Numbered from the stretch's first letter, positions 44,912 through 58,741 are shown. The stretch: 64,000 bases of DNA from Actinomycetota bacterium (GCA_016201065.1 JACQDL010000023.1:62001-126000); one strand, 5' to 3'. Notes: generated by a model from the sequence alone, not told the origin. Program-made: numbers and translations.

Positions 44912-45880
44912 ATGACGCTGACTCGACGGATCGCCGCCGCCGCGGACCGCGCAACCACGCGCCTGGTGCGGCTGGAGATTCTGGTGCTGGCCCTCGGCAT
45001 CCCGCTCTTCGGTGCGTTCTACCTCGTCGACCAGCACGTCGACGCCGGGCCGTCGCTCGTCCAACGGCAGGTTCAGGCCGCCGAGCGGCGGGTACGCACG
45101 GCGCCGAACAGTATCCAGGCCCGACTGCAGCTGGCGCTGGCCTACCGGCAGGACAGCCGGCTTGACGACGCGTTGCGGCAGTACGACGAGATCCTGAGGG
45201 CGGAGGGAAGCCATCGGGCCGCCCTGCTCGGACGCGGCGGTGTCCTGATGGCCAAGGGCGACCTGGATTCCGCCGCGGCGGCGTTCCGGACGATCACCGG
45301 TGCGGCGTCGACCGGCGAGTTCGCCGGTGCGGACCCGCAGCTTGCCGAGGCGCACTACTTCCTCGGCTCCATCGCGTTGACGCAGGGGAAGGTCAAGGCC
45401 GCCCTCGCTGAGCTCCAGGCCGCACTCAAGATCGACCAGACGGATGCGGATGCGTGGTATCTGCTGGGCCTCGCGCGGCTGAAGGATGGTGCCGCCGAGC
45501 GCGCCGTTCCGGCGTTCCGGCGGGCCCTGCTCTTCGTGCCCACCGGGTGGTGCGAGCCCTACTCGCAACTTGCCGTGGCCTACTCGACCCTTCGCCAGGC
45601 GCCCCAGGCCGAGTACGCGGCCTCGATGGTCGATTTCTGCCAGAAGAGGCCGGCTGAGGCGAAGCGCCGGCTCCAGGCACTCGCGGCGGGACCGGTGGCG
45701 GTCGACGCGATGCTCGGGTTGGGGATGATCGCCGAGAGCAGCTCCGAACGCGCGGAGGCGGTCGGCTGGTACCGGAGGGTGCTCGCCGCCGATGCGGCCA
45801 ACATCGGGGCGAGGTCCGCACTGTCCAGGCTCGGTGTGCGGCCCACCCCGGCGGGTCCCGCCGCCGCAGGGACGGGATGA
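44912..45880 (+). CDS. Membrane-anchored TPR protein
   Basis: ATG 44912 (GAGGG at 44895-44899; an in-frame TTG at 44900 is less likely) gives 322 residues. A single N-terminal helix (EILVLALGIPLFGAFYLVDQ) anchors a periplasm-facing solenoid of about 6-7 TPR units, for example IQARLQLALAYRQDSRLDDA and DADAWYLLGLARLKDGAAERA. It opens the multiheme cytochrome gene run and ends one base before the NHL gene. TPR proteins such as CcmI/NrfG present apocytochromes to heme lyases in other bacteria; a similar role here is inference. Confidence 0.75.
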   Translation: MTLTRRIAAAADRATTRLVRLEILVLALGIPLFGAFYLVDQHVDAGPSLVQRQVQAAERRVRTAPNSIQARLQLALAYRQDSRLDDALRQYDEILRAEGSHRAALLGRGGVLMAKGDLDSAAAAFRTITGAASTGEFAGADPQLAEAHYFLGSIALTQGKVKAALAELQAALKIDQTDADAWYLLGLARLKDGAAERAVPAFRRALLFVPTGWCEPYSQLAVAYSTLRQAPQAEYAASMVDFCQKRPAEAKRRLQALAAGPVAVDAMLGLGMIAESSSERAEAVGWYRRVLAADAANIGARSALSRLGVRPTPAGPAAAGTG

Positions 45881-45881
45881 G

Positions 45882-46937
45882 ATGACCACGGTCGACAACC
45901 CCCCGCCCACCGCCGCCGACCCGGCGGCGCCGTTGCCGGCGCCGGGGCCTCACCGCACCAGCCGATGGCGCCGTTGGCGCCGCCCGGTGGTGGCGGCGCT
46001 CGCGCTGCTGATCGCGATCCTGGTCATGGTGGCCATCTGGTACCTGCGCAGCCGCAGGCCGCTCTCCGAACTCCCGGGCCTGGCCGAGGACAGGATGCCG
46101 CACTACGTGTTCAGCCTCTACGGCGCCACCCATCCGCTCGGGGTGGCGGTGCTCCCGTCCGGCGACCGGATCTACGTCACCGAGAGCGACGGTGACCGCG
46201 TGGTCCGGGTCTACAACCGGTCGGGGAAGGAGATCGGCACCCTCAGGCCACCGCCGTCGTCGACCGGCGCCGCCCACATCCCGGTCTACGTGGCCATCAA
46301 CCCGGCCACCGACGACATCTACGTCAGCGACCGCATGGCGGCCGCGGTCCACGTCTACGACGCGGCCGGCAGGTATCGGCGCACGTTCGCTCCCCGGGGT
46401 GATCTCGGTGCCGGTTGGGAGCCGCTGGGCCTGGCGTTCGACCGGGACGGGCGGCTCTACGCCACCGATGTCCGGGGCGGCACGCACCGGGTCCTCGTCT
46501 TCGGCGCCGACGGCACGCTGCAGCGGACACTTGGGCTACCGAACTCGTTGTCGTTCCCGAACGGGGTCGTCGTGGACGGGTCCGGCAACATCGAGGTCAG
46601 CGACAGCAACAACGGCCGGGTGGTGGTTTTCGATCCGGCCGGGAAGCTCCTCGCCGCGATCAACCGCGGGGTCGGCGATGGCGACCTCGGCCTGCCGCGT
46701 GGGGTGACGGTCGACGACAAGGGACGGCTCTACGTCGTGGACACGACCAACCACGCGGTTCGGGTGTACCGGGTGGGCGATGGCACCGATCCGCTCCCCG
46801 TGTATCTCGGCTCATTCGGGCAGGAAGGGCTGCTCGACGGACGGTTCGAGTACCCGAACGGGATCGCCACCGACACCCGGAGCCGCATCTACGTCACCGA
46901 CCGGGAGAACAACCGGGTTCAGGTGTGGAGCTACTGA
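45882..46937 (+). CDS. Membrane-anchored NHL-repeat beta-propeller protein
   Basis: The 351-residue protein starts at ATG 45882, one base after the TPR gene stop. After a Pro-rich cytoplasmic start it has one helix near residues 40-57 (VVAALALLIAILVMVAIWYL) and then five or six NHL blades; recognisable ones are HPLGVAVLPSGDRIYVTES, FPNGVVVDGSGNIEVSDS, PRGVTVDDKGRLYVVDT and YPNGIATDTRSRIYVTDREN. The propeller should be outside the membrane. NHL propellers are scaffolds for protein interaction; a place in a cytochrome complex is suggested only by the location. Confidence 0.8.
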   Translation: MTTVDNPPPTAADPAAPLPAPGPHRTSRWRRWRRPVVAALALLIAILVMVAIWYLRSRRPLSELPGLAEDRMPHYVFSLYGATHPLGVAVLPSGDRIYVTESDGDRVVRVYNRSGKEIGTLRPPPSSTGAAHIPVYVAINPATDDIYVSDRMAAAVHVYDAAGRYRRTFAPRGDLGAGWEPLGLAFDRDGRLYATDVRGGTHRVLVFGADGTLQRTLGLPNSLSFPNGVVVDGSGNIEVSDSNNGRVVVFDPAGKLLAAINRGVGDGDLGLPRGVTVDDKGRLYVVDTTNHAVRVYRVGDGTDPLPVYLGSFGQEGLLDGRFEYPNGIATDTRSRIYVTDRENNRVQVWSY

Positions 46938-47038
46938 TCGATGGAGGGAGCTGAGGTCCGTGTTCCGGAACCGCCGCGACACGATGCGGATCGGCGGTGC
47001 GGGCCTGTGCGTGATCCCAGACGGAAGGAGGAACGGAG

Positions 47039-48082
47039 ATGGGAACAGTGAGGAGGCTGGCCTTCCTCGCGGTCGGTAGCCTGGTCTGGCTGGGGCTCGC
47101 AGCCGTCCCCGCGTCAGCCGACAACGGGCCGCACTACCCGTCCGCGGGCAATACCGCCGTCGACCGGTGCGCCGGGTGTCACCGCGCACACACGGCACCA
47201 GCGCCGTACCTGCTGCGAGCGGCTCAGCCGGCGCTGTGCTACACGTGTCACGGCGCTGCCGCCGGCGGTGCGTCGACCGATGTCTACGACGGAGTCGGCT
47301 ACCCAGGTTATGAACGTGGCGGCACGGCAGCGGGCGGCCAGGCACTCCGCGGCGGTGGTTTCGGCTACGCCCTGATCGGGTCGGGGAGCGCGACCCGAAC
47401 CCCGCCAGGTGTGTCACCGGCGGTCAAGACCGTTCCGGTGCTGACCACGGGCGAGGCGACGACGTCGACGCACAGCGTCGACGGCTCGACCCTCACCGCG
47501 TGGGGTAACGGGGCGATCTCGTCCACCGTTTCGGCCGGCACCGCGATCGCGTTGCGGTGCGGCTCGTGCCACGACCCGCACGGCAACGGCAACTACCGAA
47601 TCCTGCGGGCCATCCCGACGGATTCCGGGGCGGCAACCGGGGTTGCGATACCCGACTCGGCGGCGAAGGTCTACACGACCGGCAACTACTGGGCCACCGA
47701 CGACCCCAACTCGCCCCCGGTCACCACCCCGATCACGGTGACGTCCAGCACCGGCGTGGTCACGACCTACACGCCATCGGTGTTCATCGCCAACATCTCG
47801 GCGTGGTGCACGACCTGCCACACCCGTTACCTCGCGCCGTCCGGTTCGTACGAGAACAGCTCCGGCGACGCGCTGTACACCTATCGGCACCGGTCGGATC
47901 AGAACTACCGGGAAGGCGGTGCGAACTGCATTACCTGCCACATCGCGCACGGTACGAACGCGGCGATGAGCGGGACCTACTCCGGCAAGGCCACCAACCC
48001 TGACGGATCGGGACCCGCCGGGAGCAGCAAGCTCCTCCGGGTCGACAACCGTGGTACCTGCAACATGTGTCACAGGGTCTGA
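47039..48082 (+). CDS. Secreted hexaheme cytochrome c
   Basis: The 347-residue protein has a signal peptide (residues 1-27, ending VPASA) and six CxxCH heme sites: CAGCH, CYTCH, CGSCH, CTTCH, CITCH and CNMCH. The first two form a doubled-CxxCH pair; the others are separated by long Ser/Thr/Gly-rich stretches. No CxxCK or other catalytic site is visible. ATG 47039 is preceded by GGAAGGAGG. It follows the NHL gene after 101 bases and precedes system II assembly genes. Best described as an electron-carrier of the cytochrome c3/c7-like group; no membrane anchor after processing. Confidence 0.85.
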   Translation: MGTVRRLAFLAVGSLVWLGLAAVPASADNGPHYPSAGNTAVDRCAGCHRAHTAPAPYLLRAAQPALCYTCHGAAAGGASTDVYDGVGYPGYERGGTAAGGQALRGGGFGYALIGSGSATRTPPGVSPAVKTVPVLTTGEATTSTHSVDGSTLTAWGNGAISSTVSAGTAIALRCGSCHDPHGNGNYRILRAIPTDSGAATGVAIPDSAAKVYTTGNYWATDDPNSPPVTTPITVTSSTGVVTTYTPSVFIANISAWCTTCHTRYLAPSGSYENSSGDALYTYRHRSDQNYREGGANCITCHIAHGTNAAMSGTYSGKATNPDGSGPAGSSKLLRVDNRGTCNMCHRV

Positions 48083-48128
48083 TGATGCTGCGGCCGGCCA
48101 CCAGATACAGGAGCCATGGGAGCCAGCG

Positions 48129-49034
48129 ATGGTCCACCGCCCGACCTCCGCCGCCAAGGACGCCACCGGGTTGACCAATGAGCTGCTCGGCCGGATGGGG
48201 CTGACCTCCGCCGCGAGCCAGGAGGACATCGAGAGCGCGCACGACAGGATCCTGGAGTTCCTCCAGCAGGCCCCGCGTGGGTTGCGGTCCTGGGCCGAGC
48301 GGGAGATCACCGCAGCGGACGAGGCGTTCGTCCTGCTGTCCGACCCGGCCGCCGACCTGCACGCGGCGGACCCGGACGCGGCGGACGCCGCCGGCCCAGC
48401 AGCCGAGCCGCCGTCCACTGCGACGCGTACCTCACGGCGGACCCACCCGGCGCGGACGGGGCTGGTGGGCGCTGTCATCGCCGCGGTGGTCCTCGGTGGC
48501 TACGCCATCGGGCGCGAACCGGGGGTGCCCGGCATCTCGGGCACACCGACCGACCAGTCCTCGACGGCGCCGCCCGCGACGCCGGTCGACCAGGCGAAGG
48601 TCGCCGCGCTGATGGCGAAGGTCAGCGCAAACCCGAAGGACGTCGACTCGCTCCGGACGCTCGGTGACACCTACTTCCAGGCCGCCGACTACGCCACAGC
48701 CAGCAGCTGGCAGCAGAAGATCCTCGCGCTCGACCCGAAGGACGCGACCGCGCACCTGGCGTTGGGGGCGGCGCAGTTCAACCTGGGCAACGCCGCCGAG
48801 GCGGAGCGCCACTGGCGGCAGGTCGTGGCGCTCAACCCTCGGCAGGCCGAGGCCCACTATGACCTCGGCTTCCTCTACCTGAGCCAGAGTCCACCCGATC
48901 TTGCCAAGGTTCGCGAGGAGTGGCGCACAGTCGTCGAGATCGACCCCGCGTCCGCGATCGCCAAGACGGTCGCGACCCACCTGGCGAGCCTGGATGGCGC
49001 CACTCCCAGCCCCTCGCCCACCGATGGTCACTGA
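48129..49034 (+). CDS. Second membrane-anchored TPR protein
   Basis: From ATG 48129 the product has 301 residues. The N-terminal third is a small helical region (LTNELLGRMGLTSAASQED, AEREITAADEAFVLL), then an Ala/Pro linker, one helix near residues 120-135 (GLVGAVIAAVVLGGYAIG), and about four TPR units (DVDSLRTLGDTYFQAADYATA to HYDLGFLYLSQS). It sits between the hexaheme cytochrome and resB. Its topology places the TPRs outside the membrane, suitable for handling apocytochrome c; this is inference from the position. Confidence 0.75.
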   Translation: MVHRPTSAAKDATGLTNELLGRMGLTSAASQEDIESAHDRILEFLQQAPRGLRSWAEREITAADEAFVLLSDPAADLHAADPDAADAAGPAAEPPSTATRTSRRTHPARTGLVGAVIAAVVLGGYAIGREPGVPGISGTPTDQSSTAPPATPVDQAKVAALMAKVSANPKDVDSLRTLGDTYFQAADYATASSWQQKILALDPKDATAHLALGAAQFNLGNAAEAERHWRQVVALNPRQAEAHYDLGFLYLSQSPPDLAKVREEWRTVVEIDPASAIAKTVATHLASLDGATPSPSPTDGH

Positions 49035-49046
49035 GCGAGGGGTGAC

Positions 49047-50546
49047 ATGAGCCAGATCCTCCGCACCCACTCCCCGGTCGAGCCCGACGCCGACGACGAC
49101 CCCGACAGCCTCGACAGCGGTATCGCCGTCTCGCCGTCGGACGTCGTCGACCGGCTGTGGCGCTTCTTCATCTCCAAGCGCGTCGGGCTGGTCCTGATCC
49201 TCGCCATGGGACTGCTGTCCCTGGTCGGCACGGTTCTGGCGCAGGCACCGGCGGGGATGCGCGACGATCCGCAGGCCTACCCGCAGTGGCTCGCCTTGCA
49301 GCGCGGGAAGTACGGCGGCTGGACCACGGTGCTGGACACGCTCGGCCTCTTCGCGGTCTTCTCCTCGATCTGGTTCAAGGCCGTCACCGTCCTGCTGACC
49401 ACCAGCATCCTCGCGTGCTCGATCAACCGGGCGCCGCGGCTGTGGCGGCAGGCGATCCACCCGCGCACCCGGATGGGTGATGCCTTCTTCTCGCACGCGG
49501 CGCTGCGCGCCCGGATCACGGTTCCGGTCGGAACGGACGGCGCCATCGCGGCGGCCCAGCGCGCGCTCCGGTCGCACCGCTTCCGGACGCTCGTCGACCC
49601 GGATGGCTCGCCCGGCGCGCTCTACGCCGACCGGCACCGGTTCGGCCCGTTCGGCACGGTCGTGGCGCACGTGAGCTTCGTCGGCATCCTCCTCGGTGCG
49701 GCCATCAGCGGGTCGGCCGGCTTCAAGGACACCCAGTTCGCCGTTCCGGTCGGCTCCCGGGTGGAGGTCGGCCACGGCACCGGGATCGCGGTCGAGGCGA
49801 GATCCTTCTCCGACTCCTACTACCCGGACGGCTCACCGAGGGACTACGCGAGTGAGCTGGTGCTCCACCAGAACGGCCATCCGGTCGCCACCAAGACGGT
49901 CCGGGTCAACCAGCCAATGCGGTGGGGCGGCCTCTCGCTCTACCAGTCGTTCTTCGGGGTTGCCGCCGCGATCCAGGTCGAGGATGGCGCCGGCAAGGTC
50001 GTCTTCGACTCCGGCGTACCACTGGCGTGGAGCTCGGACGACGGCACGCACAGCATCGGCCAGTTCGAGCTGCCGGCTCAACGCCTGAGGGTGTACGTCG
50101 TCGCGGCCGCCTCCGGCGAGGTCGACCCGAACATCCAGCCGGGGCAGATGCAGCTGGAGATCTATGCCGCCGGAGCGGACACGCCGATGACGACGACCGT
50201 CGTCTCGCAAGGCAAACCGACCGCGGCGGCCGGCCTGAGCTTCACCTTCGCCCGCGAACGCCAGTTCACCGGCCTGATCGTGGCGCACGACCCAGGAGCG
50301 ATCTTCGTCTGGGTCGGCTCCATCCTCATGGTCCTCGGCCTCTTCCTCGTCCTCTTCTTCCCGCACCGCCGGGTGTGGGTGAGCGCGCGCGAGACGACCG
50401 GCGGCAGCGAGATCCGGCTCGCGTCGGCCATGCGGCGCGACTCGGCGTTCGAAGCGCAGTTCCACCGGCTGGTCGGTGACATCCAGCGCTCCGGAACCCG
50501 CCCACCGGAACCGATCGACTCCTCAGCCGAAGGCAGGGCCGAGTGA
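49047..50546 (+). CDS. resB: Cytochrome c biogenesis protein ResB (Ccs1)
   Basis: ResB forms, with CcsA, the system II heme export and ligation complex for c-type cytochromes. The 499-residue protein has the family layout: helices near residues 45-65 (RVGLVLILAMGLLSLVGTVL) and 98-120, a third near 205, a large extracytoplasmic domain (about 225-420), and a final helix near 425-445 followed by a cytoplasmic tail. ATG 49047 is preceded by GAGGGG. It overlaps ccsA by 4 bases. Presence in this cluster suggests it is dedicated to the adjacent multiheme proteins. Confidence 0.92.
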   Translation: MSQILRTHSPVEPDADDDPDSLDSGIAVSPSDVVDRLWRFFISKRVGLVLILAMGLLSLVGTVLAQAPAGMRDDPQAYPQWLALQRGKYGGWTTVLDTLGLFAVFSSIWFKAVTVLLTTSILACSINRAPRLWRQAIHPRTRMGDAFFSHAALRARITVPVGTDGAIAAAQRALRSHRFRTLVDPDGSPGALYADRHRFGPFGTVVAHVSFVGILLGAAISGSAGFKDTQFAVPVGSRVEVGHGTGIAVEARSFSDSYYPDGSPRDYASELVLHQNGHPVATKTVRVNQPMRWGGLSLYQSFFGVAAAIQVEDGAGKVVFDSGVPLAWSSDDGTHSIGQFELPAQRLRVYVVAAASGEVDPNIQPGQMQLEIYAAGADTPMTTTVVSQGKPTAAAGLSFTFARERQFTGLIVAHDPGAIFVWVGSILMVLGLFLVLFFPHRRVWVSARETTGGSEIRLASAMRRDSAFEAQFHRLVGDIQRSGTRPPEPIDSSAEGRAE

Positions 50547-51433
50547 TGCTGACGCTGTCCCACTACAGCCTGGTCGCGGGAGTCGCGCTGATCGCGCTCG
50601 CGCTGGCCAGCTACATGCTGGTGTTGACGATCGGGCGGTCGGTGCACCGGCGGCCGGCGATGGCCCGGGTCGGCGGCGGCGCGGCGGCCGAGGTCGCCGC
50701 GTCCCGGCCGCGCGGCCTGGCCCAGTACGGCACGGCGTTCACCCAGCTCGCCCTGGCGTTCCTCACCGCGTCGCTGGTGTGCCGCGCGATCGCGACCGGG
50801 CACGGGCCGTTCGCCAACCAGTACGAGTTCGCGGTGGCCTTCGGCTGGGGCATGGTCGGCGCGTACGTCTACGTCGAGCGCCGCTACCACGTACGGACCC
50901 TCGCCCTGCTGATCCTGCCCATCGCGACCGCGCTGCTGCTGTACGCGATGACGGTCGGCGCGACCGCCACGCCGCTGGTGCCCGCGCTACAGAACAGCCT
51001 GCTGCTGACCGTGCACGTCGCGGTGGCGATCCTCGCCTACGGCGCCTTCTCGGTGGCCTGCGCGGCCGGCGCGCTCTACCTGATCCAGCCCGAGGGCGGT
51101 CGGCGCGGCATGCCCAAGCCGGCGCTGCTCGACGAGATCGCCTATCGCGCAGTGGTGATCGCCTTCCCGCTGATGACGATGACGATCATCCTGGGTGCGG
51201 TCTGGGCCGACATCGCCTGGGGTAGCTACTGGAGCTGGGACCCCAAGGAGACCGCGTCTCTGCTCACCTGGCTCATCTACGGCGGGTACCTGCACGCGCG
51301 GGTGGTTCGTGGCTGGCGGGGGCGTCGGGCTGCCTGGCTGCTGATGGCCGGCTTCGCCGCCGTGCTGTTCACCTTCTTCGGCAACCTCTTCTTCGGCGGC
51401 CTGCACAGCTACGCCGGCATCAGCCCCAGGTGA
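50543..51433 (+). CDS. ccsA: Cytochrome c biogenesis protein CcsA (ResC, heme-handling)
   Basis: CcsA exports and presents heme for attachment to CxxCH motifs. The 296-residue membrane protein has about eight helices and the tryptophan-rich WWD heme-handling motif at residues 221-244, including SYWSWDPKETASLLTW. The conserved flanking histidines H158 and H251 are present. Start is GTG 50543 or the next codon ATG 50546; the resB stop lies in between. Partner of ResB. Confidence 0.94.
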   Translation: MMLTLSHYSLVAGVALIALALASYMLVLTIGRSVHRRPAMARVGGGAAAEVAASRPRGLAQYGTAFTQLALAFLTASLVCRAIATGHGPFANQYEFAVAFGWGMVGAYVYVERRYHVRTLALLILPIATALLLYAMTVGATATPLVPALQNSLLLTVHVAVAILAYGAFSVACAAGALYLIQPEGGRRGMPKPALLDEIAYRAVVIAFPLMTMTIILGAVWADIAWGSYWSWDPKETASLLTWLIYGGYLHARVVRGWRGRRAAWLLMAGFAAVLFTFFGNLFFGGLHSYAGISPR

Positions 51434-51490
51434 CGCACGGCCAGGGCAACGGCAGGCGTGCCCGACCGGGATGAGGACGGAGGGTCTGCG

Positions 51491-52039
51491 ATGAGGTCGC
51501 TGGTGCTGGCTCTGGCCGCGACGACCGCCCTCGTGCTGGTTGCCGGCCACCTCACCGATCAGCACGCCGCCGGTGGGGCAAGCGCGGTCACGCTGTCCGG
51601 GCCGGTCACGGGTGCCGCACCGACGGTGGGCAAACCCGCGCCGGACTTCACGGCCACTGCCGTGGACGGCACGCCGGTCTCGTTGAGCTCGTTCCGGGGG
51701 CGAGCGGTCTGGCTGACGTTCGGTGCCAGCTGGTGCGCGGCGTGCCGGGCCGAGGCGCCGGACATCGAGGCCGCCTACCGGCGCACCCAGGCCGACGGTG
51801 TGGTGGTCCTCGCGGTGTCCATCTCCGAGAGCACTGCCGACGTCCGGGGCTTCGCCGATCGGGCCGGGCTCACCTTCCCTCAGGTGGCGGACCCGGACAC
51901 GCGGATCGCGTCGGCGTACCGGGTGGGCGGGATCCCGGCCCACTTCTTCATCGACCGGCACGGCGTCCTGCGGTCGATGCGGACCGGAAGCCTCAGCCCT
52001 GACGGGATGGACGGCGCCTTGGTGGAGATCAGCCGATGA
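51491..52039 (+). CDS. TlpA/ResA-like thioredoxin
   Basis: The 182-residue protein is an extracytoplasmic thioredoxin-fold oxidoreductase. An N-terminal hydrophobic segment (residues 3-19) is a signal anchor; the active site is WCAAC with C82 and C85. ResA-type proteins keep the CxxCH cysteines of apocytochrome c reduced before heme attachment. ATG 51491 is preceded by GGAGGG, and the stop overlaps the decaheme start (ATGA). No CcdA electron donor is in the window. Confidence 0.88.
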   Translation: MRSLVLALAATTALVLVAGHLTDQHAAGGASAVTLSGPVTGAAPTVGKPAPDFTATAVDGTPVSLSSFRGRAVWLTFGASWCAACRAEAPDIEAAYRRTQADGVVVLAVSISESTADVRGFADRAGLTFPQVADPDTRIASAYRVGGIPAHFFIDRHGVLRSMRTGSLSPDGMDGALVEISR

Positions 52040-53586
52040 CCACCCCACCGGTGCCCGACCCACCGGCGGCGGGCGCGGACGCCCGACCGACCCGCCGTTT
52101 CCGCCGCTTCCGCCGGGTGCCGCACCCGCCCTGGCGGAGCAGGCGCGGCATCCTGCTGCTGTTCCTGCTTGCCGCCGGATTCGGGTCGATCGTCACGGTG
52201 AGCGGGGCGATGGCCGTGCACTACTCGGAGACCACCAGCTTCTGCGGCCGGTGCCACACCATGGACGCGGAGCTGAAGGCGCACCAGATGTCGGCGCACC
52301 GTGAGCTCAGCTGCGCGGAATGTCATGTGCAGCCGGGCGTCGCCGGCTGGGTCAGGGCGAAGGCGACGGGTACCAAGCAGCTCATCCAGATCATGACGGG
52401 CTCCTACCCGCGGCCCATCCCACCGCCCGACCACGCGCGGCTGCCGTCGATCAAGGACACCTGCCTGCGCTGCCACTCGGTGGAACGCATCACCCGCAAC
52501 GGCGGTCCGCTCAAGCTGGTGCTGAGACCCACCTACCAGCCGGACGAGAAGAACACCCGGGAACTCGTCGCCGTCGTGCTCCGCCCATCTGGGCTGGGCA
52601 GCGGCGACGGTGTCCTCGGCGTGCACTGGCATGTCCAGCAGCAGGTGACCTACAGCACCACCGACCGGGCCTCGAAGAAGATCGATCTCGTTGAGATCAC
52701 CCGACCCGGCGGGCATGTCGAGCAGTACATCGCCGCGGCGGCGGTTGGCGTGTCCAACGACGTCCGGCCGGACATCGAGCGCCTGCGCAGTACCGAGTCG
52801 TCCCGGGTCATGGATTGCCTCGACTGCCACAACCGGGTCGGGCACGGCGTCCCGAGCACCGACCAGGCGCTGGACGAGTCGATGTCAGCGGGCCGGATCA
52901 GCGCGTCCCTGCCCTTCATCAAACGGGACGGGGTCGCCCTGCTGAACGCCAGCTACCCGTCCGTGGCGGCCGCCGACAGCGCCATCGAGGGACTTCGGGC
53001 GACCTACCAGGAGCGCTATCCGCTCGTCCTGAGGCGCAGCAGCACGCAGGTGACCGGGGCGATCGACGAGCTGAAACGGGTGTACCGGCTGCTGGCGACC
53101 CCGGAGATGAAAGTTCAGGCACGAACCTACCCGGACAACCTGGGGCACCGGAGCGCACCGGGCTGCTTCCGGTGTCACGACGGCACCCACTACCAGGTGG
53201 TCGGCGGCACGGTGACGAGCAAGAAGATCCCGTCAGCCTGCGCGACCTGCCACATCTTCCCCCAGATCGGCGGACGCATCTCCGGCCTGCTGATCGGTGG
53301 TGAGCCGGCCGACCACGCCAGCCCGCGCTACGTGTTCACCCACAAGATCGGTATTTCCGGTACCAATCCGGCCGGGACGGCCTGTGCGAGGTGCCACGAC
53401 CGCACCTACTGCGAGAACTGCCACAACACTGGTGCGGTGACGGTGCAGCACGACCAGATGCTCTACAACCACCCCGCGTCGATCCGGAGGTCCGGTGGGC
53501 AGGCATGTGGGTACTGCCACCAGGAGGTCTACTGTGCCGGCTGCCACAACGACCCGGTGCTGCTCACGCCGGCGTCCCCAGGGTGA
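52036..53586 (+). CDS. Membrane-anchored decaheme cytochrome c (NapC/NirT-like)
   Basis: The 516-residue protein has one N-terminal helix (about 38-60) and ten CxxCH sites: CGRCH (70-74), CAECH (93-97), CLRCH, CLDCH, CFRCH, CATCH, CARCH, CENCH, CGYCH and CAGCH. The first part (helix, SFCGRCH with the histidine-methionine neighbourhood, LSCAECH) resembles the NapC/NirT quinol-oxidising tetraheme family. The remainder is a six-heme or more extension with no known catalytic motif. It probably takes electrons from menaquinol and passes them outward. The ATG overlaps the thioredoxin stop. Confidence 0.85.
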   Translation: MTTPPVPDPPAAGADARPTRRFRRFRRVPHPPWRSRRGILLLFLLAAGFGSIVTVSGAMAVHYSETTSFCGRCHTMDAELKAHQMSAHRELSCAECHVQPGVAGWVRAKATGTKQLIQIMTGSYPRPIPPPDHARLPSIKDTCLRCHSVERITRNGGPLKLVLRPTYQPDEKNTRELVAVVLRPSGLGSGDGVLGVHWHVQQQVTYSTTDRASKKIDLVEITRPGGHVEQYIAAAAVGVSNDVRPDIERLRSTESSRVMDCLDCHNRVGHGVPSTDQALDESMSAGRISASLPFIKRDGVALLNASYPSVAAADSAIEGLRATYQERYPLVLRRSSTQVTGAIDELKRVYRLLATPEMKVQARTYPDNLGHRSAPGCFRCHDGTHYQVVGGTVTSKKIPSACATCHIFPQIGGRISGLLIGGEPADHASPRYVFTHKIGISGTNPAGTACARCHDRTYCENCHNTGAVTVQHDQMLYNHPASIRRSGGQACGYCHQEVYCAGCHNDPVLLTPASPG

Positions 53587-53699
53587 CCATCGTCCCATCT
53601 CCAGCCAAGATCGTCGTCGTAGACTGTACCCGTCCAGAAGGGCCGCCACTGGTCGGCCGAAGGACCAAGGGGGCGGGATTCCGTGTCCGGAGCGAGACG

Positions 53700-55130
53700 G
53701 TGCCACTGTCGATATTTTCCGGATTAGCTCGTCGCGGCGTGCGTGGTCTGGCTGGCGACGGGCCGCAGGCGCTTGGCCGGCTCCGGGTGTTGGGCATCCT
53801 GGTCCCGGTCGCCTTCGTCATCGTTGTGGAGTTCCTCCGGGTCGTGGCCGTCGGGCGGGACCGGCTCGCGATCACCGGCCATGTCGCCTTCGCTGCGGTG
53901 ATGACGCTGTCGATCGTGGCGTTCACGCTGGCGATGTTCGCCGTCATCGACCGTGCGCAGTTGCTCCTGGAACGGCACAACCGCGAGCTGGCGGTGACGA
54001 ACGCCGTGGCCACCGCCGTCCCGGGAGAGCAGGCTGTCGAGCTGGTCGCCGATCTCCAGCGCCGCAGGCGCGAAGGGCACGCCGGCTACGACGTGCTCCT
54101 CCAGATCTCGAGCCAGCGGCCGCTCCAGGACGTCCTCGGTGCTGTCGTCCGCGCCGCCTGCGACCTGCTGGCTTGCGACGAGGCGAGCCTGTGCCTCGAC
54201 CAGGTGGCGTCCCCGTTCATCCAGCTCGACGAGGCACTGACCAGGGCAGTCGGGGTCGGGGCGAGCCTGACGGTGCCGATCCACGGCTCCGCGGGATCGC
54301 TCGGCGACCTGCGGGTCGGCCGGCAGCGGGACGTTCCGTTCACCGAACGGGACCGGACCTTCCTGATGACCCTCGCCAAGCTTGTTGCGATCACCATCAC
54401 GAACGCCGAGCTCCGCGAGAACGACCGCCAGCGCGCCATCCTGTCCGAACGCGAGCGGATCGCCCGCGAGCTGCACGACAACCTCGCCCAGGTGCTCGGG
54501 GCGACCCACGTCCGGCTACGCGCGCTGGGTTCGCGGCTGGCTGTCCGTGGCAAGGGCGGGAGCGGTCCCGAGCCGACCGCGCTGGCGGAGCTCACCGAGC
54601 TGGCCGACCTGTGCCAGGAGTCCTACGGCGACGTGCGGGAGGCGATCCTGGGGTTGCACGAGTCAAGCCGCGCCGACCGCGGGTTGCTGGACAGCCTGAG
54701 CGCCTATCTCGACAGGTACAGCCGGCTGTGCGGGATCGAGACCTCGCTGGAGTGCACGCTCGATCACGAGCTGGCCCTCTCCCCCAGCTGCGAGGTGCAG
54801 CTGATCCGCGTCATCCAGGAGGCCCTGACCAACGTCCGGAAGCATTCGGACGCCAGGTCGGCGGTGGTCCGGATCACTGAGGCGCGCTCGGCGATCACCT
54901 TCCTCGTCGAGGACGACGGCCACGGCTTCGAGCTGGATCACCTGGCGGCGCGGCGGGACGGCTTCGGCCTGCACTCCATGCGCGAGCGGATGACGCTGCT
55001 CAGCGGCGATCTTGTCGTCGACTCCGCTCCGGGACGTGGCACGCGGGTCGTTGCCAGCGTCCCCCTTCCCCGCCGCCCCACCCACGCTCCCGCAGGGATC
55101 ACCGACATCGCCGAGGCGGTCCGGACATGA
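53700..55130 (+). CDS. Sensor histidine kinase with GAF domain (NarX/NreB type)
   Basis: The 476-residue protein (GTG 53700, GGAG seven bases upstream; a GTG at 53583 overlapping the decaheme stop would add 39 residues) has two membrane helices (LGILVPVAFVIVVEFLRVV and HVAFAAVMTLSIVAFTLAMF), a GAF domain around residues 115-235, a HisKA_3 domain with phospho-acceptor H259 in ARELHDNLAQ, and a GHKL ATPase (NVRKH, DDGHGF, GLHSMRER). It is coupled to the response regulator by ATGA overlap. Likely controls the preceding cytochrome genes; signal unknown. Confidence 0.88.
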   Translation: MPLSIFSGLARRGVRGLAGDGPQALGRLRVLGILVPVAFVIVVEFLRVVAVGRDRLAITGHVAFAAVMTLSIVAFTLAMFAVIDRAQLLLERHNRELAVTNAVATAVPGEQAVELVADLQRRRREGHAGYDVLLQISSQRPLQDVLGAVVRAACDLLACDEASLCLDQVASPFIQLDEALTRAVGVGASLTVPIHGSAGSLGDLRVGRQRDVPFTERDRTFLMTLAKLVAITITNAELRENDRQRAILSERERIARELHDNLAQVLGATHVRLRALGSRLAVRGKGGSGPEPTALAELTELADLCQESYGDVREAILGLHESSRADRGLLDSLSAYLDRYSRLCGIETSLECTLDHELALSPSCEVQLIRVIQEALTNVRKHSDARSAVVRITEARSAITFLVEDDGHGFELDHLAARRDGFGLHSMRERMTLLSGDLVVDSAPGRGTRVVASVPLPRRPTHAPAGITDIAEAVRT

Positions 55131-55831
55131 GGCAACGCGCGAACGCAGGGCGGCCGACCGAGCCCACCCGGATCCTGCTGGTCGACGACCAGCCGCTCTT
55201 CCGGCGGGCCATCGCGACGCTGATCAACGAGCAGTACGACCTGACCGTGGTCGGCGAGGCGACGAACGGTCTGGATGCGGTGGAGCAGGCACACTCGCTG
55301 ACCCCCGACCTGGTGATCATGGACATCGAGATGCCGGTGATGGACGGGGTCGAGGCGGCCCGTCTCCTCCACGAGCAGCTACCTGCCGTGAAGGTCCTCA
55401 TCCTCACCGTCTCGGAGTCCGACGATCGCCTCTTCGACGCCATCCGCTTCGGCGTTCACGGCTACCTGCTGAAGGACCTGCGACCGGAACAGCTCTACGA
55501 CATGATCCGGTCGGCCATGCGCGACGAGACGCCGGTCTCGCCGGTGGTGGCCGGGCGGCTGCTGGAGGAGATCCGGAACGCCGGGGCGACCCGCCAGTCG
55601 ACCGCGACGCCGGCCGAGAAACCGGTCGTTACCCGCCGTGAGCTGGAGATCCTGCGCCTCGTCGCGGACGGCATGAGCAACAAGGAGATCGGCCGGAAGT
55701 TGTCGATCACCGAGGGTACGGTCAAGAACCACGTCCACAACGCCCTGGAGAAGCTGCACCTGGACAACCGCATCCAGGCGGCGACGTACGTGGTGCGGCA
55801 GGGACTCGGGCACCCGCCCACCAGGACCTGA
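55127..55831 (+). CDS. LuxR/NarL-family response regulator
   Basis: The 234-residue protein has a receiver domain with acidic pocket D20-D21, phospho-acceptor D66 in VIMDIEMP, conserved threonine in LILTVSES and lysine in YLLKD, then a LuxR-type helix-turn-helix (VTRRELEILRLVADGMSNKE, IGRKLSITEGTVKNHVHN). It is the partner of the preceding kinase. No target site could be picked; it probably acts at promoters in this cluster. Confidence 0.93.
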   Translation: MRQRANAGRPTEPTRILLVDDQPLFRRAIATLINEQYDLTVVGEATNGLDAVEQAHSLTPDLVIMDIEMPVMDGVEAARLLHEQLPAVKVLILTVSESDDRLFDAIRFGVHGYLLKDLRPEQLYDMIRSAMRDETPVSPVVAGRLLEEIRNAGATRQSTATPAEKPVVTRRELEILRLVADGMSNKEIGRKLSITEGTVKNHVHNALEKLHLDNRIQAATYVVRQGLGHPPTRT

Positions 55832-56017: not shown

Positions 56018-56440
56018 TCAGGTCACAGAGCTACGCCATCTCAACGCGTACCAGACAACGAGCGAGGTGCACGCAACCTCCAGAATGCTGAAGAATATGT
56101 AGTAGATTGCCAGTGACGATCCGACAAACAGTGATGAGGATTGAACAACAGTCATCGTTGCCCCAGCAATGATATTTGCCCAGCGATTCGCCCTGTGCTT
56201 CATCACCCTGGACAGGAGAACCATGGCGATCGGGATCTCCACCAATATTGATGCCCCCAACAGGAACCCCTGAGTGAGATGGAGGCCACCTACGTTTCCG
56301 GTCAGGTACTGCCTTAGCAGCTCGGGATCCATCAGACCCACAATATCGCAGTAGAGATAGTTGAGCACCGCGAACAGCCACAAGGTCGAAAGCCTTGCTC
56401 TCACATCTCCCATTCCGGCTGTTTCTTGGTTCGGGTCCAT
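56018..56440 (-). CDS. Small four-helix membrane protein (DUF6326-like)
   Basis: The product has 140 residues when started at ATG 56440, where GGAGGAG lies six bases away; an in-frame ATG 15 bases upstream overlaps that ribosome-binding site and is unlikely. Four hydrophobic helices are predicted (LWLFAVLNYLYCDIVGLMDP, FLLGASILVEIPIAMVLLS, ANIIAGATMTVVQSSSLFVG, YYIFFSILEVACTSLVVWY). I think it matches the family annotated DUF6326, but this is from memory. The gene has clearly lower GC than its neighbours, which suggests recent transfer. Confidence 0.7.
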   Translation of the reverse strand: MDPNQETAGMGDVRARLSTLWLFAVLNYLYCDIVGLMDPELLRQYLTGNVGGLHLTQGFLLGASILVEIPIAMVLLSRVMKHRANRWANIIAGATMTVVQSSSLFVGSSLAIYYIFFSILEVACTSLVVWYALRWRSSVT

Positions 56441-56711
56441 AATATTCTCCTCCATGGTGGCTTCGATATTCGTCTACACGCGGTTCGACGGGGCCCGCCG
56501 CCCTCGCGACATCACGAGAACCCCGTGCTGCCGACGCTACTTGCGGCGGACGTCCCCGACCTCCCGCTGCGGGGCGAACCCGGCTCGCCGCGGGAGGGAT
56601 TCGTCAGTCACTCCGGCGGGGGAACATTCCTCCCGAATCGTTCCGCGGAGGGACCGTGGATCTGGCGCATGGGCGACGACATGCGCGGATCCTCATGACA
56701 CCATCGGGATC

Positions 56712-58103
56712 GTGAAGGCTCTCCGGCATCCGACACGTCGCCTGGTCGACTCGGCGGAGACACGCGCAGAGGCGTACCTGCTGCTCGGTGGTGCCTTCGG
56801 GGTCCTGTGGTTCACGCTGATCGGCACCCTGTATCTCAGCGGACTCCTCACCAAGGTCCTGCTGGTCGGCCTCCCCGTCTTCGCCGGCGCCCACATGCTG
56901 CTGCGGCCGATCGGACGCTTCGAGAGATTCCTGGTGAAGTCACTGCTGGGCCAGGACGTGACGACTCCGGAACCCTTGCGGTACGAGCGCTCCGCGGGCT
57001 CCCGGATCTCGGGCCTGGTTGACGTCTCGCGGCGGGGCTACGCGGTCTTACAAGACGGACATAGCTGGCGAGTACTGGTGTGGACGCTGGGCCGGTTCGT
57101 CCTCGGGCCGCTCGGCCTTGTCGTTGTCGTCGTCTACGTCATCCTGCCGATGCTGCTGGTGGCCGCCCCGCTGGCGGTGGTGGTCGATGCCGTGAGCGAG
57201 GACGTGTCGATCGACTTCGCCGGGAAGAGCTGGCTGCTCCTCTGCCCCGTCGGCCTTGTCGTGCTCGTTCCGCTCCGGGCGGCGATCCGCGGTCTGACGA
57301 CCCTGCATCGACGGTTCGCCGGGTGGGCTCTGGGGCCCGGCCGTCGCGAGATCGCGGCGGCAGCGCTGGCACGCGCCGCCCAGGCCGAGGAACAGGTGCG
57401 CATCGATCAGGAACTGCACGACAGCATCGGCCACATGCTGTCGATGATCGTCGTGCAGGCCGGCGCCGGAGCCCACGTGTTCGACCAGGACCCGGACTTC
57501 GCCCGCCAGGCGCTGGGCACCATCGAACGCCGCGGACGGGCTGCGCTCGGCGAGCTCGACCGCATCATCTCGGGCATCCGGGACCACAACTCAGACAAGG
57601 CAGCTGGCGCGGCCGGCACAGGTGGGCACGCGCCTCTGCCGGGCGGAGGGGATCTGCCCACTCTCGTTGCCGGCGCCCGTGAGGCAGGCATGGACGTGAC
57701 CTCGCGAATCCGGATCGGTGAGCTCCCGCCCGCCCTGGGCCGCGGTGTCTACCGCATCGTGCAGGAGGCACTGACCAACGCCGCGAAGCACGCCCCAGGG
57801 CGTGCGGTGGCGGTGGATGTCGCCATGGGCGAGGAGGCCGTAGCCGTGTCGGTCGTGAACGAGTTCCACGGCAGCACCTGGCCGGGGTCGGCCACCCCCG
57901 GCCACGGCCTGGCCTTCATGCGTGACCGCGCGGCGCTGCTGGGCGGCGAGGTCAGTGTGGGCGAAACCAGATCCGGCGGGTTCGCGGTACGCGCCGTGCT
58001 GCCATTGACCACGATGCTTCCGAACGGTAGGAGCACCCGGTGTTCGTTTTCGCCACGGTGTGACTGCCTCGGGTGCACGATCCGTCGTAGCGTGCTCGGG
58101 TGA
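56712..58103 (+). CDS. Sensor histidine kinase with actinobacterial sensor domain
   Basis: GTG 56712 gives 463 residues. Residues 25-230 form an actinobacterial membrane sensor domain with two pairs of helices and the cytoplasmic segment RPIGRFERFLVKSLLGQDV. A HisKA_3 domain follows with phospho-acceptor H236 (DQELHDSIGHMLSM), then a GHKL ATPase (EALTNAAKHAPG; GHGLAFMRDRAALLGG). DesK-like in type. The C-terminus carries an odd Cys/Arg-rich tail. It overlaps the response regulator by 4 bases. Signal unknown; no clear ribosome-binding site. Confidence 0.85.
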   Translation: MKALRHPTRRLVDSAETRAEAYLLLGGAFGVLWFTLIGTLYLSGLLTKVLLVGLPVFAGAHMLLRPIGRFERFLVKSLLGQDVTTPEPLRYERSAGSRISGLVDVSRRGYAVLQDGHSWRVLVWTLGRFVLGPLGLVVVVVYVILPMLLVAAPLAVVVDAVSEDVSIDFAGKSWLLLCPVGLVVLVPLRAAIRGLTTLHRRFAGWALGPGRREIAAAALARAAQAEEQVRIDQELHDSIGHMLSMIVVQAGAGAHVFDQDPDFARQALGTIERRGRAALGELDRIISGIRDHNSDKAAGAAGTGGHAPLPGGGDLPTLVAGAREAGMDVTSRIRIGELPPALGRGVYRIVQEALTNAAKHAPGRAVAVDVAMGEEAVAVSVVNEFHGSTWPGSATPGHGLAFMRDRAALLGGEVSVGETRSGGFAVRAVLPLTTMLPNGRSTRCSFSPRCDCLGCTIRRSVLG

Positions 58104-58741
58104 GGATCGCGATCGTCGACGATGACCCCCTGGTGCGGATAGGCCTGCGCGCCATTCTCGCCTCCGAGGACGGCTGGGAGGTCGTGGCCGAAGCCGGCGA
58201 CGGCGAGGGCGCGGTTGAGCTGGCGAGCGGGACGGACCCGCCGGACCTGATCCTCATGGACATCCGGATGCCGGGTATGGACGGGCTCGAGGCGACCCGC
58301 CGCATCACCACGCGGAGCAACGCACCCCAGGTGCTGGTGCTCACCACCTTCGAGGTGGACGAGTACGTCTTCGAGGCCATGCGTGCTGGCGCGACCGGAT
58401 TCGTGCTGAAACGGATCCCACCCAAGGACCTGATCGAGGCGGTGCGCATCGCCGCCTCCGGGGAGTCGTTGCTGGTCCCGGCCTCCACGCGCAGGGTCAT
58501 CGAGCGGTTCGCGGCACGGTCGGGCGAACCGCTGCCCGAATTATCCGAACGTGAACAGGAGGTCCTGCGCCTTCTCGCCCGTGGGATGTCCAACGCCGAG
58601 ATCGCGCGGGATGCGTCGGTGTCCGTCGAAACCGTCAAGTCGCACGTGGCCTCGGTACTCCTGAAGCTCGACGTGCGCGACCGTACCCAGGCGGTGATCG
58701 TCGCCTACGAGACGGGGTTCGTGGCGCCCGGCTCGGCCTAG
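58100..58741 (+). CDS. LuxR-family response regulator (DesR-like)
   Basis: The 213-residue protein has a receiver domain with acidic D7-D9, phospho-acceptor D54 (LILMDIRMP), a switch threonine in LVLTTFEV and the lysine in VLKRIPP. A LuxR-type helix-turn-helix starts LSEREQEVLRLLARGMSNAE. GTG 58100 overlaps the kinase stop. It forms a pair with the preceding kinase; no target is evident. Confidence 0.93.
   Translation: MRIAIVDDDPLVRIGLRAILASEDGWEVVAEAGDGEGAVELASGTDPPDLILMDIRMPGMDGLEATRRITTRSNAPQVLVLTTFEVDEYVFEAMRAGATGFVLKRIPPKDLIEAVRIAASGESLLVPASTRRVIERFAARSGEPLPELSEREQEVLRLLARGMSNAEIARDASVSVETVKSHVASVLLKLDVRDRTQAVIVAYETGFVAPGSA

Follow-up and report, generated by a model that had tools for sequence, protein, structure and literature searches.

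The locus described here raises the question of where two multiheme c-type cytochromes, encoded in one gene cluster of an Actinomycetota genome, send their electrons: to an acceptor outside the cell, or to a soluble compound reduced by a cytochrome of the cluster itself. The window (the whole stretch of 64,000 nucleotides that was analysed) carries the cluster at 44.9-55.8 kb. The original prediction, made from its sequence, was of a self-contained module, with dedicated maturation and regulatory genes and no catalytic reductase, that could be an electron conduit from menaquinol to an extracellular or unknown acceptor and tied to complex I nearby.

Composition and setting of the locus

The ten genes lie in tandem on the plus strand and their composition is as originally listed; the coordinates in Table 1 incorporate corrected starts for all ten. 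P9 starts with a GTG codon that overlaps the stop codon of P8. N-terminal membrane segments are present in P1, P2, P7 and P8, and a signal peptide in P3; the membrane segment of P4 is internal, and its N-terminal part is cytoplasmic. The predicted total of 16 CxxCH sites proved exact, with six in P3 and ten in P8. No other open reading frame in the window has more than one such site, and across the whole genome (3.65 Mb, 97.8% complete) paired-CxxCH matches above the cut-off occur only in P3.

Table 1. Genes of the multiheme cytochrome locus, in window coordinates.
Gene	Assignment	Coordinates	Strand	Evidence
P1	TPR protein, membrane-anchored, 322 aa, one N-terminal TM	44912..45880	+	Pfam TPR
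P2	NHL beta-propeller, membrane-anchored, 351 aa, one N-terminal TM	45882..46937	+	PF01436 5e-35
P3	Secreted hexaheme c-type cytochrome, OmcS/CwcA family, 347 aa, signal peptide	47039..48082	+	6 CxxCH
P4	Single-TM TPR, probable apocytochrome chaperone (CcmI/NrfG-like)	48129..49034	+	TPR, weak CcmH_CycH match
P5	ResB (system II cytochrome c assembly), additional copy	49047..50546	+	PF05140 3e-72
P6	CcsA/CcsB (system II heme lyase)	50543..51433	+	TIGR03144 223 bits, above cut-off
P7	TlpA/ResA-like thioredoxin	51458..52039	+	AhpC-TSA/Redoxin; ResA subfamily 1e-29, below cut-off
P8	Membrane-anchored decaheme, NrfH/NapC-type N-terminus, 516 aa	52036..53586	+	10 CxxCH; PF03264, NrfH 1e-16
P9	NarX/NarQ-like histidine kinase	53583..55130	+	TM + GAF + HisKA_3
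P10	NarL-like response regulator	55127..55831	+	NarL 193 bits, below cut-off 250

The gene set is not a chance grouping, since the same set recurs in other genomes. Composition gives no support for a recent foreign import, the GC content being 0.70 in both the locus and the window, and no integration site is indicated because a tRNA scan of the window found none. A scan for sigma-70-type promoters, which is uninformative at such GC, returned none. We note that a second kinase and regulator pair lies directly downstream (window 56361-58741), in which the kinase has a PF13796 sensor domain.

Genes for complex I (nuoD/F/G, 27.9-33.9 kb) and for menaquinone synthesis (mqnA/mqnC, 41.5-44.3 kb) are nearby, both on the strand opposite to the locus. 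The suggested tie to complex I thus reduces to proximity, which is context and not evidence of coupling. Elsewhere in the genome there is a frame for a Tat-type molybdopterin oxidoreductase (L105, G000:C10:906-2147), polysulfide/thiosulfate-reductase-like by eye.

The hexaheme and its conserved companions

On sequence evidence, P3 is a member of the OmcS/CwcA hexaheme family. The best PDB match of a family profile built from 13 Actinomycetota hexaheme sequences is Geobacter OmcS (6ef8, E 3.1e-14), with hemes 1-5 aligned colinearly and heme 6 outside the aligned stretch; the likeness appears at the profile level only, a PDB search with the single P3 sequence giving no OmcS match. P3 has exactly 12 histidines, six of them heme-proximal within CxxCH and six that are candidate distal ligands. 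Because the latter are conserved (without change in six class-level sequences, and with little or none in 13 from across the phylum), one distal histidine is possible for each heme in a bis-His arrangement. One of them, H51 in the first motif CxxCHxxH, is invariant and aligns with OmcS residue 16, which we take to be an intersubunit heme ligand. OmcS and OmcE both have a histidine that reaches across to ligate a heme in the adjoining subunit (PMC9473688). The AlphaFold model of the single P3 chain is unusable (pLDDT 37).

The family membership of P3, together with its place in a widespread trio of genes, removes the notion of a module without relatives. In the window the TPR and NHL genes are neighbours and precede the hexaheme gene, all on one strand (44912-48082), and this same-strand order is found in 16 of the 22 loci retrieved by homology search (L047-L068); among the others, two are at contig ends, two are rearranged and two do not have the trio. 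Control stretches taken in the same genomes, about 206 kb in all, contained no match to P1, P2 or P3. A collection scan places relatives of P3 in Actinomycetota (including Coriobacteriia), Clostridia, Thermoanaerobacteraceae, Thermincola and Chloroflexi. Within the Actinomycetota, 22 of 396 sampled genomes have matches to the P3 family, the weakest of which reflect mere paired-CxxCH similarity, and an actinobacterial OmcS homologue has been published (PMC7399161); multihemes are therefore not exceptional for the phylum, as had been supposed, but they are so for the class and order.

The surroundings of the trio vary. In Thermincola ferriacetica (L063) the order is ImdcA, a 12-heme and a 17-heme cytochrome, TPR, NHL and the hexaheme CwcA, ImdcA being identified by a GIRD start that agrees with the N-terminal sequencing in PMC7911101. 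In a Chloroflexi locus (L068) ResB and CcsA adjoin the TPR, NHL and hexaheme genes, and between CcsA and TPR there is a 667 aa protein with six single-heme cytochrome c-like repeats (L068:2962-4965). Large multihemes stand beside the trio in a Bacillota MAG (L066:6957-14192; 2411 aa, 67 CxxCH), in L065 (10934-20116; about 3060 aa, 42 CxxCH) and in Thermincola (L063:13603-16668; 1021 aa, 34 CxxCH). L047:10001-13135 encodes a longer cytochrome (1044 aa, 13 hemes) that has a hexaheme-like module at its P3-related N-terminus.

Closer relatives of the complete locus are found within the class. A search for P8 in 398 further genomes sampled from the order found none; in the class at large, homologues with 48-59% identity along almost the entire protein occur in five genomes, which belong to three other families. 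All five also have P3, with which the P3 of the window forms a clade (support 99/100), and four of the five keep the TPR-NHL-hexaheme order; P1 is 38-49% identical to the TPR protein adjoining NHL in the five genomes, and P2 is 44-56% identical to its homologues. Gene content and, largely, gene order are thus conserved. The full complement of ten is present in L110, little changed in order (kinase and regulator, TPR, NHL, hexaheme, 7-heme, P4, ResB, CcsA, TlpA, P8), L108 and L109 have TPR, NHL, hexaheme, 7-heme, P4, P8 and TlpA, and L119 has kinase, regulator, TPR, NHL, hexaheme and a further multiheme. The window locus differs in having its regulators at the end and in lacking the 7-heme cytochrome that lies between P3 and P4 in four of these relatives (six hemes are visible where a contig ends). 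This 7-heme protein (L108:3774-5255, L109:14261-15634, L110:9124-11568) has one extra CxxxCH, a possible eighth heme, and an N-terminus that resembles an OmcS-like first heme pair.

The decaheme and the absence of a reductase

The N-terminal part of P8, which includes a membrane segment at residues 37-61, resembles a quinol dehydrogenase of the NrfH type. NrfH is the best PDB match by sequence (2.9e-7) and the sole credible match in a Foldseek search with the predicted model (E 0.017), a model that is poor (pLDDT 51.8) except for the NrfH-like part and a helical stretch at about 275-353. The first heme motif, CxxCHxM, is NrfH-type with M76 invariant, although the score of 61 bits to the NrfH equivalog TIGR03153 is below the curated cut-off of 134.2. 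Matches of 5e-16 and 2e-19 are obtained to the NapC-type multihemes of Thermincola L063. We infer that this head would oxidise quinol.

P5-P7 make up a system II for cytochrome c maturation (ResB, CcsA and a thiol oxidoreductase), and P5 and P6 are an additional copy, because contig C16 carries a second and unlike ResB/CcsA set (26% and 36% identity). P5 is 55% identical to the ResB of L110. In L096 and L109 ResB and CcsA are missing, with CcmC and CcmF/NrfE-type genes nearby instead, and in L096 (7262-10093) a P4-like TPR domain forms the C-terminal end of the CcmF/NrfE-type heme lyase, a fusion that identifies P4 as a component of heme ligation. The regulators likewise recur, P9 homologues adjoining the trio in L110 and L119, where the P10 homologues are 68% identical. 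A further setting is provided by G195, a class genome with neither P3 nor the decaheme, in which a complete operon for true NrfH and NrfA (L097:7741-16814) is flanked by homologues of P4, P5, P6, P7, P9 and P10. The regulatory and maturation genes are therefore a shared kit; the predicted assembly factors and two-component system are indeed present, but they are not unique to this locus.

This kinship with NrfHA operons could be read as a sign that P8 and P3 are a divergent reductase for a soluble acceptor (nitrite or another oxyanion) derived from such an operon, with P3 serving only as electron store or donor. The NrfH domain at the start of P8 and the NarXL-like character of the regulators are in keeping with this. 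However, family matches of P8 are limited to the NrfH/NapC N-terminal region and cytochrome c7, NrfA (PF02335) has no match in the host genome at E <= 10, and no CxxCK heme motif was found. A catalytic nitrite reductase is rejected on the absence of NrfA, and no catalytic domain was found, in agreement with the prediction that the module has no reductase. Ten further histidines in P8 are invariant in six homologues and could ligate all ten hemes, so that nothing points to an open catalytic heme. Moreover, P3 matches OmcS and not a reductase, and what G195 shares with the two cytochromes is the NrfH-type head alone. We consider a divergent reductase unlikely.

A proposed electron path and its known counterparts

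The locus probably encodes a conduit of the ImdcA/CwcA (OmcS-nanowire) type that transfers electrons out of the cell. As regards a conduit, the original prediction is well supported, and neither of the two outcomes set out as refuting it (genes scattered in relatives, a catalytic domain in a cytochrome) was seen; three points have had to be corrected, in that the module has relatives, multihemes are not exceptional in the phylum and the kit is shared. For filament formation, electron flow, the acceptor, the roles of P1 and P2 and the regulatory signal, we infer the following scenario. Menaquinol would come from the neighbouring futalosine pathway, with complex I or other dehydrogenases carrying out its reduction, and the NrfH-like head of P8, the membrane decaheme, would oxidise it; electrons would then travel along the ten hemes of P8 to P3. 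The bis-His hexaheme P3 would polymerise head to tail like OmcS and span the wall, the histidine of its CxxCHxxH motif closing a heme in the neighbouring subunit, and electrons would leave for an outside acceptor such as Fe(III)/Mn(IV) minerals, humics or a partner cell. Among the accompanying genes, P1 and P2 may anchor, assemble or secrete the P3 chain, and P4-P7 would mature the hemes through an apocytochrome chaperone, ResB/CcsA heme ligation and thiol reduction. By analogy with NarXL, P9 and P10 might switch the set on at low oxygen or in response to nitrate/nitrite.

NrfH/NapC-type quinol modules and multiheme wires are in principle bidirectional, and electrons could instead run inward, with Fe(II), an electrode or a partner cell as source and the quinone pool as destination; the genome has possible sinks in NarG and in oxidase-type cytochromes (CcoO-like, on C32, recognised by eye). 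We regard this as improbable. Export is favoured because menaquinone is low-potential, so that uptake from Fe(II) would be uphill, and because Thermincola, among relatives of known physiology, exports electrons. Least probable of all is that the locus is a relic or an incomplete conduit whose chain falls short of the acceptor, as the missing 7-heme cytochrome and the want of any other paired-CxxCH gene above the cut-off in the genome might suggest, since all ten reading frames are intact, their third-position GC of 0.85-0.95 (measured in frame for all but P9) is like that of neighbouring core genes, and the hexahemes of Thermincola, Clostridia and Chloroflexi are accompanied by other cytochromes or by none of the 7-heme kind.

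An export conduit at this locus would be of some consequence. We know of few monoderm bacteria (Thermincola, Carboxydothermus) in which wall-crossing long-range electron export is established, and to our knowledge multihemes are almost unknown in class Actinomycetes. What may be new, and is put forward tentatively, is a complete two-multiheme wire in this class, formed by a decaheme quinol dehydrogenase and an OmcS-type polymer, with a maturation and regulation kit shared with NrfHA and with heme-ligation genes swapped (ResB/CcsA versus CcmC/CcmF) among relatives. If this is so, we know of no smaller conduit of this type, and its unusual simplicity would suit it to tests of which components a nanowire requires. 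Because Clostridia, Chloroflexi and Actinomycetes all retain the TPR-NHL pair, it is a testable candidate for a core assembly apparatus, and the exchange of ResB/CcsA for CcmC/CcmF beside the same cytochromes offers a natural experiment on the maturation needs of the hexaheme. In the open-licence literature we found no report of the TPR-NHL-hexaheme-decaheme set in class Actinomycetes, of a two-multiheme version of the conduit, or of a kit common to NrfHA. The conduit is nevertheless not of a new kind, since OmcS homologues in Actinobacteria (PMC7399161) and a Gram-positive wall-crossing homologue (PMC7911101) have been published.

Among known systems, the NrfHA operon of G195 shares with the locus the NarXL-like pair, the P4 TPR protein, ResB, CcsA, TlpA and an NrfH-type quinol module, but has the catalytic NrfA and neither the hexaheme nor the TPR-NHL pair; P8, with six more hemes, stands in place of NrfHA. 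Geobacter OmcS resembles P3 in being a hexaheme cytochrome with colinear hemes and in its first motif CxxCHxxH, but belongs to a diderm host and is similar at the profile level only; in the osc (omcS-companion) operon, OscD is a beta-propeller. The osc companion genes act in folding, secretion and morphology, according to the account of Shen et al. 2025 given in PMC13194489. The osc cluster includes a prolyl-isomerase chaperone (OscH) and secretion genes (OscEFG); no prolyl-isomerase domain occurs among the ten genes here. The physiological role of OmcS filaments is itself disputed (PMC11077965). Within the Actinomycetota, OmcS-like hexahemes or multihemes linked to Fe(III) also occur in Coriobacteriia and Anaerosomatales (PMC7399161, PMC9686372), which are of a different class and have 17-37 multihemes per genome as against two here. 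The Thermincola ImdcA-CwcA locus differs in its extra 12-, 17-, 14- and 34-heme cytochromes nearby, in a shorter decaheme only about 26% identical to P8, and in its L063 stretch, where the analysis detected neither ResB/CcsA/TlpA nor NarXL-like genes. Like the locus described here, however, it combines a membrane NapC-type decaheme with a secreted hexaheme OmcS homologue preceded directly by TPR and NHL genes. In T. ferriacetica that hexaheme, named CwcA and modelled on OmcS, is proposed to be a peptidoglycan-spanning polymer, and ImdcA and CwcA are proposed to form an electron path from menaquinol to the outside through the Gram-positive wall (PMC7911101).
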